From NCBI GenBank assembly GCA_017615795.1, contig JAFZZK010000046.1, positions 1 through 52,598 of the forward strand: a stretch of 52,598 nt of DNA. The letters run 5' to 3'. Source of the DNA: Bacteroidales bacterium. Lineage in GTDB: Bacteria; Bacteroidota; Bacteroidia; Bacteroidales; WCHB1-69. Position numbers and translations under genes: made by a program. The notes below the pieces were generated by a model. The model made no database searches. It was not told the origin of the DNA and worked only from the letters and a program-made list of their open reading frames with translations. The first letter of the stretch is position 1; each line of letters begins with the position of its first letter. Below are positions 45,291 to 51,768 of the stretch, piece by piece.

Positions 45291-46882
45291 AAAAGACCAT
45301 CGCTATGCATAAGACCACATTTTTTCTTTTCTCCCTGCTTTTGTGTACCGGTTTGTACGGGCAGGCGCGCGACACCATCTACCTCCACGAGGAGCGGATT
45401 GTCTATGACACCGTCTATTTACACGACACCATCTACCAATTTGCGGTCGCACAACTGGACACGCCCATAGTGTCCAAACCTGCGGCAAAATATGTACCCG
45501 ATGTCTTCAAAGGGTTTCATTTTGGCTACACGGTCCAATACAATATGACGCAAGCAGCCGTTTTCACCGCTGCCGACGGCACCCCCGGGTCCCCCACAAC
45601 CAAAATGGGCAGCGGGTTTGCAGGAGGTTTCGAGTTCTCCTACCATTTCGCCAAGTATTTCGGTGTGGCCGTAGGGGTGGGCTTTGGCTCCCACTATGTA
45701 CTGCAGGTAAACTCCCCCTGTACAGACCTGTATTAGGGACACAACCCCAACCATCACAGGTTCAGCCAAGGCGCCATGTTGTTTCCCATCAAATTTGAAT
45801 TCCATATACCTTTCAACGACAATTTCTTTTTTCTGGCGGACGCCGGCATCCGATTCAACTATTACAATTTAACGGCAGATGACTATTTCGGCACCACTAT
45901 GAGCAATTGGGACAACAATGACGTAAACGACAGCTACACCAGATGTCACATAGAATTCAGACGTCCTTTTGCCAAGCCTGTTCAGTCGGAACTGCTCTTT
46001 GATTTGGGATTCTACTATCGTCTGCCCAACGATGGCCTGCTGCGGTTTTCCATTGGCGCCAACCTGTCGCTGTCGAAACCTTGGCAGGGCCGCTATGAAA
46101 TTTACACCGAAAACGAGGTCTTGGAGAACGGCACCATCTCCTTGAAAAACCACTATTTCTATCCTCAAATAACTTACGTCAACACCTTCCAACGCTACAA
46201 AGAGAAAGAATTTCATAAGGCGCCTTGGTTTGACGAGGTTTATCCCAGCTGGTCCAACCAGAAGCGATATCCCCGTCACGAATTCCAGTTGAACTTCGGA
46301 ATACCGAATATGCAAAGCTGTCATTCCTTAATGGTGGATGGGATGTTGCTTTACGAATGGTTTCCTAATCTATTCAAAAACATCAGTTTCGGATCTAACA
46401 ATCTAAATTCTTCAGACAGATTCTATACCAAGGTGTATTTCACGCCGGTCATTTCGTTGAGTTACCATTATCGCTTTCAAAAATGGTTATGGTTCGGCGC
46501 CACCGCCAATTTCTCGGAATTACACAATCATTATTATGACCGCACAACTAATGAGAGAATACAGGATATGTCGATACGATTCACAGCTTTCAACTTGTTG
46601 GCGGACATTAGATTTGCCTACCTCACTTTGCCACACATCACGCTCTACTCCGAAATATCCGGAGGAATACAGCTCGGTCAGGAAGCTGTAAACTTGACGA
46701 ATGACGAATACGACGTGCCACATCCCTATAATCAACCAAGGAAGTTGTCTGCTTGTACATTCCCAACCTACCACCTCACCGCATTGGGCATCAAAGCGGG
46801 ATCCAAGGGATGGTTCGGCAATGTGGAGTTTGGCACTGGATACAAAGGTTTTATCAACGCTGGCGTGGGGTACGAATTTTAG
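45287..46882 (+). pseudogene. outer-membrane beta-barrel protein gene interrupted by one in-frame TAG
   Basis: A signal peptide (FFLFSLLLCTGLYGQ, about residues 11-25), an HDTIY-rich periplasmic linker and an outer-membrane barrel are encoded in one reading frame. The frame is cut by a TAG at 45734-45736, after 149 residues. It continues without a shift (GHNPNHHRFSQGA) into a 368-residue open stretch at 45776-46882 that is rich in aromatic beta strands and ends in a Phe (YKGFINAGVGYEF), a typical barrel end. Without the stop the product would be 531 residues. The 5' ATG overlaps the sigma-factor stop by 4 nt. Either a recent nonsense mutation or a sequencing error explains this; TAG is used as a normal stop elsewhere here. 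Confidence 0.82.
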
Positions 46883-46935
46883 CGAGGTCAACCTCGACCG
46901 CGGCAGCATCCACTCCTGCCACGAGTTCACAAATC

Positions 46936-47003
46936 CTAGGGGACGAGAGTCGAACTGTTGTGTCAGACGAAGTGCTGTAATACAACAATTGTGCTACAAA
47001 TAG
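46936..47003 (-). pseudogene. degenerate tRNA relic (Val-like)
   Basis: The minus strand keeps tRNA landmarks: TAGC after a 7-nt acceptor-like end, a loop-like CTGACAC consistent with anticodon GAC, and TTCGACTC like a T arm. The acceptor pairs only at four of seven positions, the T stem at three of five, and the total is about 68 nt. It is not functional as drawn. The remaining space 46883-47140 holds only this relic and small palindromes. Confidence 0.35.
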
Positions 47004-47065
47004 CTGAAAAATGGGGGTTGATAATTCGGGGGTGAAGACACGAAATTATTGGGACTGTCGCCTGT

Positions 47066-47088
47066 CGAGACGCGAAATTTCGCCTCTC
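47066..47088. repeat. small palindrome around GCGAAATTTCGC
   Basis: A perfect 12-bp palindrome GCGAAATTTCGC (47072-47083) sits inside a degenerate extension with GAGA on the left and TCTC on the right. It resembles short REP-like elements. A second weak inverted repeat (ACGAGA/TCTCGT) lies near 47103-47121. Confidence 0.55.
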
Positions 47089-47140
47089 ACCCTGTCTCCA
47101 GACGAGATGCGTCGTCTCGTTGTCCACACGCAAATTGCAA

Positions 47141-47198
47141 ACTTCCGGGCTATAACTCGAAAAAAAATTGAGTTTTAGCCCGAAAGTATGTAATTTTT
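47141..47198. repeat. 58-bp palindromic repeat, left copy
   Basis: The element is identical over 58 bp to 48732-48789 and has the same orientation. It is a near-palindrome: the left arm ACTTCCGGGCTATAACTC pairs with the right arm GAGTTTTAGCCCGAAAGT with two mismatches around an A8-containing loop. It ends 13 nt before the -7 box of the ATPase gene. Confidence 0.9.
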
Positions 47199-47210
47199 GA
47201 AATTATTGTG

Positions 47211-47218
47211 TATCTTTG
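47211..47218 (+). promoter_or_regulatory. -7 box (TATCTTTG) for the ATPase gene
   Basis: TATCTTTG lies 23 nt upstream of the ATG at 47242. The -33 region would fall in the right arm of the palindromic repeat, so the repeat may supply part of the promoter. Confidence 0.7.
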
Positions 47219-47241
47219 CGGGCGGAAAAAACTTGCAGAAT

Positions 47242-48678
47242 ATGTCACAGAATACTGATGTTTTAGTGGGTCGCGAAGTGGAGATGAAGTCTTTGAATCA
47301 GATTGTTATGTCAAAAGAAGCTGAGTTTGTGGTGGTGTATGGACGAAGGAGAGTCGGCAAGACCTTCTTGGTGAACTCCTTTTTCAACGACCACTATGAT
47401 TTTAAACTGACTGGTCTCGCCAAAAAGAGCAAACGTGAACAACTGGCGAACTTCACCGCAGCCCTCAACCGGTATGGAGGTGGCAGAAAATATACGAAAC
47501 CTAGGACTTGGTATGAAGCCTTCGACAAATTGAGGGATTTGCTGGAATCCAAGAAAACGAAAGGCAAAAGGGTGGTGTTCATCGACGAATTGCCCTGGAT
47601 GGATTCCCGAGGCGGCAATCTGATTTCCGCACTTGAGCATTTTTGGAACGACTGGGCCGGAACACAATCTAACATACTGCTGATCGTCTGTGGCTCGGCC
47701 ACATCCTGGATTACGAAAAAGATTCTTAAAAACAAAGGCGGACTGCACAACCGGATCACCCAAAAGATATACTTGCACCCGTTTACCTTGGCCGAGTGTA
47801 AGGAATATATCCAAAGTCGTGGGCTTGCGATGGAAGACAAAGAGATTGCCGAATGTTATATGATTATGGGGGGCATACCGTTCTATCTGAAGAACCTGCG
47901 GCGTGGGGCAAGCTTGTCGCAGAACGTGGACGAGATGTTTTTTGCGGAAAAAGGGCGGCTGGCTGATGAGTTCGACGCCCTCTATGCTTCACTTTTCGAC
48001 AATTCGGAAATCTATATTAAGGTGGTGGAAGTACTGAGCAAGAAAAACAAAGGGATGACACGGGAAGAGATATTGGAAGCCAGCCATCTGAACAACAACG
48101 GTCATTTTTCCAAAATCTTGAACGACCTGACAAATTGCGACTTCATACGATGCTATAAAGGCTATGGGGACAAGAAACGGAAATCTATCTATCAACTAAC
48201 CGACCCATTCACGCTTTTTTATTACAAATTCATCAGAAAAAATGCCCCAAGCGATAAACCGTTTTGGCAATACCAGCTGGGTACACATCAGCATGATACG
48301 TGGGCTGGGTTGGCCTTTGAGCAGCTTTGCCTGAATCATCATCGCCAAATTGAGCAAGCACTTGGCATAGCGGGTATTTCCACCAAAGTCTATTCTTGGA
48401 ACAACCAGCCCAATGCCACAGAGAAGGCGCAGATAGATTTAATCATCAAGCGTGCCGACAAAGTGGTGAATGTTTGCGAGATGAAATTCTATGATGGTGA
48501 CTTTACAATGAAAAAGCGCGATGCCGACGACATTGAACGTCGTGTGAGGGCATTCCGCTCGGCAGAGCATGTCAGAATGGCTATCCACCCTGTTTTGGTC
48601 ACCACCTACGGACTGTCTGATAATACGTACAGCCATATCTTTCAAAATGTGGTCGTTTTGAAGGATTTGTTTAGATAA
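47242..48678 (+). CDS. AAA ATPase with DUF234/PD-(D/E)XK-like C-terminus
   Basis: A 478-residue protein of the archaeal-ATPase-like family widespread in Bacteroidota. Walker A is GRRRVGKT (residues 34-41) and Walker B is VVFIDELPWMDS (about 110-121). A sensor-like VCGSATSWITKK follows. A winged-helix-like middle part (about 260-330, MTREEILEASHLNNNG) precedes the C-terminal DUF234-type domain with QIDLIIKRADKVVNVCEMKF (about 396-416), which matches a PD-(D/E)XK nuclease core (Asp, then Glu-x-Lys). The ATG at 47242 follows the promoter; an in-frame TTG at 47197 is inside the repeat. The cellular role of the family is not established. It is bracketed by two 58-bp palindromic repeats. Confidence 0.88.
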   Translation: MSQNTDVLVGREVEMKSLNQIVMSKEAEFVVVYGRRRVGKTFLVNSFFNDHYDFKLTGLAKKSKREQLANFTAALNRYGGGRKYTKPRTWYEAFDKLRDLLESKKTKGKRVVFIDELPWMDSRGGNLISALEHFWNDWAGTQSNILLIVCGSATSWITKKILKNKGGLHNRITQKIYLHPFTLAECKEYIQSRGLAMEDKEIAECYMIMGGIPFYLKNLRRGASLSQNVDEMFFAEKGRLADEFDALYASLFDNSEIYIKVVEVLSKKNKGMTREEILEASHLNNNGHFSKILNDLTNCDFIRCYKGYGDKKRKSIYQLTDPFTLFYYKFIRKNAPSDKPFWQYQLGTHQHDTWAGLAFEQLCLNHHRQIEQALGIAGISTKVYSWNNQPNATEKAQIDLIIKRADKVVNVCEMKFYDGDFTMKKRDADDIERRVRAFRSAEHVRMAIHPVLVTTYGLSDNTYSHIFQNVVVLKDLFR

Positions 48679-48731
48679 ACAAGCTGTAGAACAAGTAGAT
48701 ACAAAAATATCAATATCTTCCTTCTCTGCAT

Positions 48732-48789
48732 ACTTCCGGGCTATAACTCGAAAAAAAATTGAGTTTTAGCCCGAAAGTATGTAATTTTT
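48732..48789. repeat. 58-bp palindromic repeat, right copy
   Basis: Same 58 bp and same orientation as 47141-47198. It begins 54 nt after the ATPase stop and could also serve as a hairpin terminator for that gene, though no T-run directly follows the stem other than TTTTT in the repeat itself. Confidence 0.9.
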
Positions 48790-48834
48790 CAGCAAAACAT
48801 TCAGTTATATAAACGTTCACCCCCCGAAACAAAG

Positions 48835-48862
48835 GTAGGGGCGAGTCATCATTCGCCCCTAC
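48835..48862. repeat. REP-like palindrome, GTAGGGGCGA arms
   Basis: GTAGGGGCGA (48835-48844) pairs perfectly with TCGCCCCTAC (48853-48862), loop GTCATCAT. A related GTAGGGACGGG palindrome ends the window at 52560-52587. Confidence 0.75.
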
Positions 48863-48874
48863 ACCGTCAATATA

Positions 48875-49550
48875 TTAAAAATAAACTGTATGGCTGCCAG
48901 GGTTGGGATAAAGTTTCACGCCCATAGCCGTTTCCGTGTATTGCGGCAACCCGACATTATAGGGAACGGCGAACTCGTTGCGGTGATAGGCACCGAAAAC
49001 CGCCCGACTGGTGGACCCGGTCAACCTGGAGCGGTATGGTGTCAATAAAAGTGCCGTCAATGCCCCATACTCCGATAAAAATCTTGTTCAGCACCTGACC
49101 GTCCAAGTCAAGCGTGACAATAAAATCGTATATCTGGCCATCGCGCAACTCCATAGCCGCAGGATAGAGACGATTATAGCCATTTAGGCTGATAATGCGG
49201 TGCCAAACCTGATTTCCGAGAGTGTCGAACTTGGCTATCAGGAGATTATATGTGCCTAACGACACCACCTGGGAGCCCAGTTCTTCCGCTACACAGCCTT
49301 CGGAGGGGGAATTTCCCCAACAGGCATCGCTTCCAAAAAAGCCGAAACAATAGACATTACCCTCATCATCCGTCTCCATCGTGATAATCCTGTTTTTATA
49401 GGTTGGGGTATTCTGGTCGTGGCCCATATAGGAACGGAACCACTTCCAATATCCTGCAGTATCCTGCGCCACGGCAGTAAACATCAGGCTAACAAAACAT
49501 AAAATGGCATTGGCGCGCAAGGCAAAAGATCGGATTAGCTTTCTTTTCAT
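48875..49550 (-). pseudogene. degraded T9SS type A cargo gene
   Basis: The 5' part (49550 down to about 49005) encodes a signal peptide (LCFVSLMFTAVAQ) and a beta-propeller-like start (ITMETDDEGNVYCFGFFGS, LIAKFDTLGNQVWHRI). Near 49000-49015 the frame shifts, and the sense continues in a second frame (RAVFGAYHRNEFAVPYNVG) into GVKLYPNPGSHTVYF, then a stop. YPNP is the beginning of a type A sorting domain, which is cut off after a few residues. The protein is thus frameshifted and lacks most of its sorting domain and probably its middle. It is a remnant of a secreted protein gene. Confidence 0.75.
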
Positions 49551-49650
49551 AACATTAAGGTATTATGTGACATAGCGTATGGCATTGCATACATTCCCAT
49601 AACGAAAAACAATGGGGTAACGCTGCAGTTGTCGGAAAGAAAAAAGGTTG

Positions 49651-49658
49651 TATCTTTG
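49651..49658 (+). promoter_or_regulatory. -7 box (TATCTTTG) for the EF-G gene
   Basis: TATCTTTG lies 49 nt upstream of the EF-G start codon. Confidence 0.7.
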
Positions 49659-49707
49659 CCCGTTCTTTTTACATAGGGCAAATTATTACATAAAAAACTG
49701 ATTCACA

Positions 49708-51768
49708 ATGCAAATATCCAAACTTCGCAACATAGGCATCGCGGCGCACATCGACGCCGGCAAGACCACCGTTTCCGAACGGATTCTCTTCTTCACGGGC
49801 GTGAACCGCAAGGTGGGTGAGACCCACGATGGCCAGGCCACGATGGATTTCATGAAACAGGAGCAGGAGCGTGGCATCACCATCGCCTCCGCCGCCATCA
49901 CCGCCAATTGGAACGGGCATCAGATCAATCTCATCGATACGCCGGGCCACGTGGACTTCACCATAGAGGTGGAGCGCTCGCTGCGCGTTATCGACGGCAT
50001 GGTGGCAGTGTTCTGCGCCGTGGGCGGCGTGGAGCCCCAGAGCGAAACTGTCTGGAACCAGGCCGACAAATACCGCGTGCCGCGCATCGCCTTCGTCAAC
50101 AAGATGGACCGCACGGGCGCCGACTTCAACGAGGTGGTGGTCCAGATGAACAAGTACCTCGGCGCCAACGCCATGCCCATCCACCTGCCCATCGGGGCGG
50201 AGAACGACTTCCTGGGGATGATTGACCTCGTGACGATGCAGGCCATCACCTTCACGGACAAGGAGCGCTTGGTGGGCGACATTCCCGCCGAGCTGTTGCC
50301 TGCCGCACAGGAGGCGCGCCGCGTCATGATTGAGAAATTGGCCGACGTGGACGACGAGATTGCCGAGCTGTACCTCGAAGACGCGGAGATAGGGGAGGAG
50401 TTGCTTAAGAAATCCATTCGCATGGCTACCATTAAATTGATGGTTACTCCTGTGTTGTGTGGTGCTGCGTACAAGAACAAGGGTGTCCAATTGCTATTGG
50501 ATGCTGTGGTTGATTTTCTGCCTTCCCCGACGGATCTTGGTGCTGTCATTGCACATGATCCCGCCGACGAGGAACGCACCATCCAGCGCAACCCGTCCGC
50601 GAACGAGAAGTTCTCGGCATTGGCCTTCAAGCTTATCAACGACCCATACGTGGGGCAGCAGACTTTCATCCGCATCTTCAGTGGCAAACTGGTCAGCGGC
50701 ATGAGTGTATACAATACCAATAAAGGCAAGAATGAGCGTGTGGGGCGCATTTTCCGCATCAAGGCCAAGGAGCGCGAAGAGATCAGCGAGGCCGGCTGTG
50801 GCGAGATTGTGGCCTTGGTTGGCATGAAATACACGCGCACGGGTGACACGCTATGCGACGAGAACCAGCCCATCCTGCTGGAATCCATCAAGGTGCCGCC
50901 TGCCGTCATCGAGATGAAGGTGGAACTGGAAGACAAGAAGAGCCGCGACAAATTGGGCGAGGCATTGGCCAAGCTCTGCAACGAAGACCCCTCCTTCCAC
51001 GCCCACTTCGACGAGGAGACGGAGGAGACCATCATTGCCGGTATGGGCGAGTTGCATCTTGAGATATTGGTGGAGCGCTTGCGCGACGAGTTCAAGGTGC
51101 CGGTCACGGTCGGCGAGCCTTCGGTGTCGTTCCGTGAGACCATCACCACCGCGGTGGAGAACAATTACCGCCACGTCAAGCAGACTGGCGGCAAGGGACA
51201 GTTCGCCCACACGGTCATCCGTTTCGAGCCGAACCCGGGCAAGGGCTTCGAGTTTGTGGATGTCACCAAGGGCGGCGTCATCCCCAAGGAGTATATTCCT
51301 TCTGTGGAGAAGGGGTTGCGCAACGCAATGGAGAAGAGTCCTGTGGCGGGTTATCCTGTTGTGGATGTGAAATGCGTGTTGGTGGACGGTGGCTTCCATC
51401 CCGTCGATTCAAGCGATATGGCCTTCCAGCTGTGCGCCGCACAGTGCTTCAAGCAGGCCTTCAAGAAGGCGAACCCCATCATCATGGAGCCGGTGATGAA
51501 GATCGAGGTGAACACGCCTGACGACTACATCGGCAATGTGACCCGCGACCTCACCAAGCGCCGCGGCCGCATCGAGAACATGCGCCGTTTCCGCAAAGGC
51601 TCGCAAAAGTTGGACGGTTTCTGTCCGCTGATGGAGATGTTCGGCTACGCCACCGCGTTGCGCAACGTCACCTCCGGCAGGGCTAACTATTCGATGGAGT
51701 TCTACCAATATATGCCAATGCCCGCGGCAAAGCAGGAGGAAGTGATAAAGGAGAGAATTAAGAATTGA
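49708..51768 (+). CDS. fusA: elongation factor G paralogue
   Basis: A 686-residue translational GTPase. G1 is [10 protein letters not shown] (about 12-21), the switch I region is [10 protein letters not shown]3 is DTPGHVDF and G4 is [10 protein letters not shown]. Domains II-V follow in standard order, with [16 protein letters not shown] in domain IV and [20 protein letters not shown] in domain V. EF-G moves tRNA and mRNA on the ribosome. It is shorter than the usual Bacteroidota FusA (about 700-720) and stands alone, away from rpsL/rpsG, so it may be a second EF-G; this last point is inference. The gene end lies inside a heptamer repeat. Confidence 0.92.

Follow-up and report, generated by a model that had tools for sequence, protein, structure and literature searches.

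Palindromes associated with PDC-S27 ATPase-nuclease genes in Bacteroidales and their possible role as operators and ends of a compact mobile gene

Organization of the palindrome-flanked locus

Can a single ATPase gene and the two palindromes that bracket it constitute a small mobile unit? This question is raised by a locus on a 52,598-bp contig of a Bacteroidales bacterium, the whole of which is hereafter referred to as the window. The original prediction held that two identical palindromes of the same orientation flank the gene, and this was confirmed: the 58-nt near-palindromes at 47141-47198 and 48732-48789 are identical, lie in equal orientation and enclose a gene for a 478-aa protein (47242-48678, plus strand). 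The full copies, each of 63 bp (47136-47198 and 48727-48789, both on the plus strand), are alike at 62 of 63 positions. The upstream copy, which has homologous copies 5' of the ATPase gene in other genomes, ends 43 nt before the ATG codon (47242), and 54 nt separate the stop codon (48678) from the 58-nt part of the downstream copy. Both copies are predicted to form hairpins as single-stranded DNA, with folding energies of -13.2 and -16.0 kcal/mol, and none of 200 shuffled sequences was as stable. The segment between the upstream copy and the gene (47199-47241, plus strand) is a putative promoter and leader, in which TATCTTTG at 47211-47218 fits TAnnTTTG, the -7 promoter motif of Bacteroidota. 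In the host assembly, which spans 51 contigs and 2.04 Mb and is approximately 87% complete, the palindrome is present only in these two copies at E <= 0.001, and the ATPase-nuclease gene is single-copy. A further palindrome, GTAGGGGCGAGTCATCATTCGCCCCTAC, is located at 48835-48862; it has near matches in genomes G007, G027 and G030 and received a terminator-like call on the minus strand.

Features of the encoded protein

The window protein is an AAA ATPase (PF01637 in Pfam, E = 3.4e-18) and matches the PADLOC profile of PDC-S27 (PDLC04984) almost from end to end (E = 1.7e-199; residues 8-477 to profile positions 4-473 of 474); all ten relatives tested also match the PDC-S27 profile. The protein (AF2 model, pLDDT 91) comprises a STAND-type ATPase, a possible winged helix and a PD-(D/E)XK-like nuclease. 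The AAA+/STAND ATPase domain covers residues 9-219 (47266-47898, plus strand), with Walker A at G34-T41 and Walker B at D115-E116. The winged helix, at about residues 260-321 (48019-48204, plus strand), is suggested by weak Pfam matches that all fall below the cut-offs, namely HTH_34 in the window protein (E = 0.028) and MarR_2 (E = 0.0018) and HTH_24 (E = 0.0023) in L084. In the nuclease-like domain (residues 330-478; 48229-48675, plus strand), E360, Q397, D399, E413 and K415 are invariant in 45 aligned sequences, as are both Walker motifs, and the model of this region matches restriction-endonuclease-like folds with modest scores. The nuclease-like C-terminus that had been predicted together with the AAA ATPase is therefore supported.

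The assignment to the DUF234 group did not hold for the window protein: PF03008 was not found at E <= 1, a threshold at which HMMER filters can drop weak matches, and it was seen in three of four relatives under its cut-off (E = 0.0005 to 0.087). No sequence relative in the PDB at E <= 0.1 and no NCBIfam match at E <= 0.001 were obtained. Alignments of the model with archaeal ATPases of the PABY2304/SSO1545 kind (PDB 2qen and 2fna) end at residues 329-330 and therefore do not cover the nuclease domain.

In databases, PDC-S27 is an unvalidated candidate phage-defence gene, and it is counted among the abundant defence systems of archaea and of the rumen. It has been described as an ATPase fused to PD-(D/E)XK and placed among defence genes by guilt-by-embedding, with 3503 archaeal and 4562 bacterial instances; most PDCs of the core defensome are stated to await validation (PMC12988326). 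A further 2865 instances have been reported from the rumen (PMC13356809).

Association of palindromes with PDC-S27 genes

When the window element was used as a blastn query, it was found at 20 loci among 80 fetched relatives, mostly directly 5' or 3' of the ATPase gene. A sequence-independent scan revealed palindromes of different sequence around more distant members of the family, and the upstream and downstream copies match each other in L063, L064 and L074. In the window's clade, defined as the 30 genes with at least 64% identity, palindromes were called with an iterated profile. They accompany 28 of the 30 genes (33 upstream and 14 downstream copies) and are present on both sides of 14, which agrees with the expectation of the original prediction that they repeatedly flank this ATPase family. 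The two genes without a palindrome are L055 and L058, the latter of which has only 2 nt of upstream sequence. The stems covary: minor Watson-Crick pairs occupy 85 cells, whereas 2000 shuffles gave a mean of 54 and never more than 69, but counts of this kind are raised by relatedness among the sequences. Palindrome identity is 0.89 between the upstream and downstream copies within a locus and 0.70 between loci, and at 10 of the 14 loci the downstream copy is nearest to its own upstream copy.

To cover the whole family, a non-redundant set of 77 members was built on 170 of the 177 genes by retaining one gene per 80% identity group. Upstream palindromes scoring at least 12 were detected in 36 of these members; the window's clade contributes 9 (of 12 members) and the rest of the family 27 (of 65). 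Among the controls, the numbers were 12 of 129 for intergenic upstream regions and 0 of 385 for dinucleotide-shuffled sequences. The other 41 of the 77 members, which have no upstream palindrome of this score, count against the view that gene and palindromes form a unit. The two flanks were compared in the 166 of 177 genes with full 250-nt flanks. Direct repeats between the upstream and downstream sides, scoring at least 20, occur in 51 of 166 family genes and in 8 of 181 control ORFs; this control is contaminated, because several of its eight repeats are the same as those listed for the ATPases. Strict two-sided palindromes are few (16 of 166 genes, and 10 of 140 when the window's clade is left aside), which also counts against a unit. 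Palindromes scoring at least 12 lie upstream of 77 of 166 genes and downstream of 23 of 166, versus 24 of 181 controls. Upstream palindromes were likewise found in Segatella, in Butyrivibrio (Bacillota) and on Emticicia plasmids; a Phocaeicola locus (L420), the gene ends of which are unsure, was left out of these claims. We regard the association of palindromes with PDC-S27 genes as strong.

Some upstream palindromes enclose the promoter. TAnnTTTG is present within the last 120 nt upstream in 69 of the 77 non-redundant members, and 7-bp arms surround it in 17 of these 69; the corresponding numbers are 5 of 70 for controls and 0 of 37 for shuffled sequences. Reading by eye, we found that the innermost upstream palindrome encloses a promoter-like TAnnTTTG in L061, L084, L139, L242 and the L095 group. 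Such an arrangement fits an autoregulated gene and, equally, an insertion sequence with the promoter inside its left end.

Relocation of the gene and boundaries of the unit

The gene is patchy and multicopy in the genus, with matches at E <= 1e-20 in 26 of 40 genomes and up to 14 in a single genome; most of the genomes compared are MAGs. Among 88 gene pairs with at least 90% nucleotide identity, which are not independent of each other, neither flank is common in 30. The control pairs that share neither flank amount to 4 of 50 for nadD, 0 of 5 for rsmE (used as a relocation control only) and 0 of 7 for fusA, or 4 of 62 together. One-sided flank changes are frequent for nadD too (34 of 50 pairs, both flanks being common in only 12), and therefore the genus rearranges a lot.

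Pairwise comparisons define where the shared sequence begins and ends. L153 and L138 have the unit in common but not the flanks, and on the left they become alike where the first of two tandem palindromes starts; a looser alignment places the boundary 15 nt further out, and this was not counted as a palindrome edge. L134 shares the unit with L205, L137 and L132, and left homology starts at the outer palindrome, with no shared flank between L134 and L137; L205, L137 and L132 have approximately 100 nt in common beyond the palindrome among themselves. Overall, 39 of 90 non-syntenic left boundaries with a palindrome, in 10 of 20 clusters and from pairs that are not independent, are situated at most 12 nt from the outer edge of a palindrome. 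A null built from other clusters has a mean of 24.9, and 2 of 2000 draws attained 39. Right boundaries lie between -2 and +5 nt from the stop codon in 44 of 117 cases (14 of 25 clusters, from interdependent pairs); where the two members of a pair are less similar, divergence alone may account for an end of homology at the stop. Between the window and the 92%-identical unit of G016 (L126), right homology stops 110 nt past the stop codon and 7 nt beyond the scored palindrome. A compact relocating gene unit is likely.

In G016, the ATPase of which is the closest to that of the window, one contig (G016:C30; L125 1-38) begins within the palindrome, as if the assembly broke there.

Sites without the gene and solo palindromes

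Genome G019, from a close relative, provides a view of the window's site without the unit. In a blastn comparison of window positions 46000-50000 with the G019 locus (L185), the flanks are approximately 90% alike, left homology (90%) extends to 46887 and right homology (89%) resumes at 48874. A stretch of 1986 bp in the window (46888-48873) stands where G019 has 216 bp; no clean empty site was thus obtained, and the window locus is not a clean palindrome-gene-palindrome insertion. The 216 bp of G019 are absent from the window and include the 3' end of a 682-aa ORF, the shortened remnant of which in the window is a 197-aa ORF (48957-49550, minus strand) with its 3' end missing at the right side of the unit. 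Extra DNA lies outside both palindromes, and the stretch from 46888 to the first of them holds a repeat and a fragment with matches in other genomes; either the unit therefore arrived together with other DNA, or the site underwent more than one rearrangement. The tRNA relic that had been proposed nearby was recovered by neither ARAGORN nor Rfam (E <= 1), and positions 46889-46925 match places in other genomes that we read by eye as coding 3' ends. The idea of a mobile palindrome-gene-palindrome block thus stood in part: near-identical units in unrelated contexts and the G019 flanks without the unit speak for it, whereas the insertion in the window is not clean.

Relative to L185 4438-6486, the remnant at 48957-49550 has further internal deletions besides the lost 3' end. 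The Rfam scan gave two matches only, both at chance level.

In the genus, the element was detected at E <= 0.01 in 15 of 40 genomes and adjoins the ATPase gene in 4 of them. The remaining 11 carry solo copies (7 full, 3 half and 1 short, with a 21-nt match), meaning that no such ATPase is encoded in the adjacent 1.5 kb or, on shorter contigs, in what remains of the contig. The original prediction had taken a wide occurrence without any link to ATPase genes as evidence against it; the copies in these 11 genomes speak against it in part, although most full solo copies share one gene neighbourhood, which contains cupin, aldo-keto reductase, HepT-like and ABC-type genes (Pfam). Next to six of the seven full copies is a promoter-like stretch that, by eye, resembles that of the ATPase. 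In this neighbourhood, G030 has an aldo-keto reductase gene, the palindrome and the next gene, and G004, 95% identical to G030 there, has two palindromes, the ATPase gene and a cupin-like fragment in between. Solo palindromes may have been left behind by units that were lost, or they may be targets that were there beforehand.

At L112 and L113-L119 (G004, G007, G019, G024, G027, G030, G037 and G038), solo palindromes, most of which precede the same promoter-like stretch, have differing genes on both sides. Those on the 3' side are cupin, thioredoxin-like and DUF362-like genes, as if the neighbourhood had been reshuffled at the palindrome. Here and elsewhere, the gene names FtsX, thioredoxin-like, DUF362-like, UvrA-like and ADP-ribosylglycohydrolase were assigned by eye. 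At the nadD site, G028 and the occupied sequence, as read by eye, are alike from the stop codon of the ATPase gene on. Other genomes carry other DNA there, which obscures the state before insertion, and nadD was dropped as a pair of occupied and empty sites.

Wolbachia phages show a comparable junction. In MN180249, two repeats of the ACCGCGG..CCGCGGT type precede the PDC-S27 gene, and an automatic palindrome scan of this phage found none. One palindrome and no gene are present at the junction in WOVitA1, WOVitA2, WOcauB1 and MN180251, and MN180250 has two palindromes without the gene and an annotated mobile-element gene nearby. The junction palindrome of WOVitA1 is the only one of its type in 45 kb. 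The exact palindrome core was not found in viral contigs. The PDC-S27 gene of MN180249.1 (L422) adjoins phage head genes and is annotated as an archaeal ATPase fused to DUF234.

Direct duplications around PDC-S27 genes

Direct duplications of neighbouring sequence, 30-118 nt in length, bracket 14 hand-picked genes of 13 loci, four of which represent one FtsX-type group. In L104 (885-4120), a PDC-S27 gene lies between genes for a type I specificity subunit (Methylase_S) and a restriction subunit (ResIII; both Pfam), and 106 nt of the 5' end of the restriction gene are repeated before the unit. The duplication in L149 is at a PLD-like gene, with palindromes, read by eye, at the left end of the unit. 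In L051, a member of the window's clade, a 47-nt direct duplication (around 534-1955) ends 4 nt before the palindrome, and its right copy starts 109 nt past the stop. L049 and L056 have longer duplications apart from the palindrome, and the duplication in L042 is itself palindromic. Such duplications may be long target-site duplications, products of one-sided recombination or repeats of the genus.

PLD-like genes were considered as a target and rejected: six of seven loci with at least 84% identity adjoin an ATPase-nuclease gene (two sharing one), but so do 2 of 23 more distant ones. PLD-like genes with at least 84% identity are located near PDC-S27 or DUF4143 ATPase genes at L388-L391, L411 and L412, and several of these loci contain partial gene copies.

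Possible mechanism and alternative explanations

We consider it somewhat probable that the PDC-S27 gene is a compact mobile gene whose protein recognises the cognate palindromes, which would serve as operator and probably also form the unit end. The unit would consist of one or more cognate palindromes, the promoter and the ATPase-nuclease gene, joined in about half of the window's clade by a second palindrome after the stop. The protein, probably via its winged helix, would bind its palindromes and thereby repress its own promoter. The palindromes would also mark the ends of the unit, which the ATPase-nuclease, alone or with host repair, may help to copy or insert. At the target, adjacent DNA would be lost, as in the window, or a fragment would be duplicated, as at other loci. 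Loss of the gene would leave a solo palindrome. We infer both the action of the protein on the palindromes and their role as element ends; the use of the palindromes as recognition sites for the encoded protein, proposed in the original prediction, fits an operator role as well. The unclean insertion in the window, the solo palindromes and the unstable gene order in the genus count against a unit.

In another account, in our view rather unlikely, the palindromes are operators only: the ATPase or a partner would control its own expression through them, and the gene would move only by ordinary recombination and horizontal transfer, as many accessory genes do. The clustering of palindromes upstream and not downstream of the gene, the promoter inside the innermost palindrome in several clades, tandem upstream copies that resemble operator arrays and the general instability of gene order all agree with this account, whereas the presence of a matching copy behind the stop codon of 14 of the 30 genes in the clade, relocation in excess of three control genes and left boundaries that meet palindrome edges more often than the null argue against it. 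Transcription alone would also explain the arrangement if the palindromes were bidirectional terminators or insulators around an accessory gene. Several stems have A and T runs on both sides and the downstream copy is close behind the stop, but terminators need neither sequence-specific conservation nor locus-specific matching of the two copies, and we consider this explanation very improbable. A terminator scan calls neither of the palindromes that flank the gene, and its loop limit of 8 would miss both anyway.

The palindromes could instead be REP- or MITE-like sequences moved in trans by a transposase such as a Y1 enzyme (IS200/RAYT), with the ATPase gene as a passenger. IS200/IS605, TnpB-only (IS1341) and RAYT-REP elements are small, mostly single-gene units with end hairpins. 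The PDC-S27 unit is likewise small and single-gene, and its one-strand hairpins at both ends resemble the ends of IS200/IS605 and RAYT-REP elements. Moreover, Y1_Tnp is present in 36 of 40 genomes of the genus, including one copy in the window's own, and three Y1 matches (G019:C51, G010:C21 and G027:C14) have a PDC-S27 gene within 4 kb, at distances of approximately 0.7, 2.3 and 3.8 kb. Unlike those elements, however, the unit contains no Y1 gene, and the host's only Y1 match is on another contig with no palindrome scoring at least 12 (L281). The palindrome tracks the ATPase clade rather than being one genome-wide repeat, and the host genome has only two copies. Among the 17 of 87 Y1 matches fetched with flanks, ATPase-type palindromes (L282 and L284) sit at the ATPase gene and not at Y1; one other short palindrome was seen beside Y1 (L294). 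Movement in trans thus appears improbable. As regards a DDE insertion sequence or MITE, which would have terminal inverted repeats and a short target-site duplication, the palindromes of the window are direct and its site gave no clean empty counterpart, and direct duplications were seen at other loci (30-118 nt at the 14 hand-picked genes and 47 nt at L051).

Comparison with related ATPase-nuclease families and implications

An expansion of DUF1703 AAA-ATPase/PDDEXK_9 genes in Cardinium cCpun resembles PDC-S27 in combining an ATPase with a PD-(D/E)XK nuclease; many divergent paralogues are present in one genome, and horizontal transfer and recombination have been reported (PMC6387759). It differs in belonging to other Pfam families, and palindromes are unreported in the accessible part of that source (PMC6387759). 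The accessible part of the account of PDC-S27 as a defence gene mentions neither palindromes nor unit-like mobility (PMC12988326). A literature search, which excluded most subscription papers and all bioRxiv preprints, found no description of palindromes or mobility of the PDC-S27 family.

It is a tentative and rather doubtful proposal that PDC-S27, and perhaps PDC-S01, represent a new class of autonomous one-gene mobile elements, in which a STAND ATPase-nuclease recognises clade-specific palindromes of its own as operator and ends and inserts with target loss or long duplication. If this is true, the embedding of PDC-S27 in defence operons, as in L104, would reflect insertion, and part of the defence-candidate count would therefore consist of mobile genes. 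The occurrence of this widespread bacterial gene within defence loci may thus owe something to mobility as well as to defence; if the gene is mobile, position by itself is weak evidence of defence and abundance counts should be re-examined. For many family members, the cognate palindromes are a predicted ligand and a direct biochemical handle.

PDC-S01, or DUF4143 AAA ATPases, have the same ATPase-nuclease architecture as PDC-S27 (for PDC-S01, PMC12988326). They are abundant in the genus, with several hundred matches, and upstream palindromes, found in 6 of 29 loci examined (one of 30 had no readable gene), are rarer than for PDC-S27. Some copies are within direct duplications: at L359, L360 and L363, DUF4143 ATPase genes are located between 47-78 nt direct repeats of adjacent sequence.
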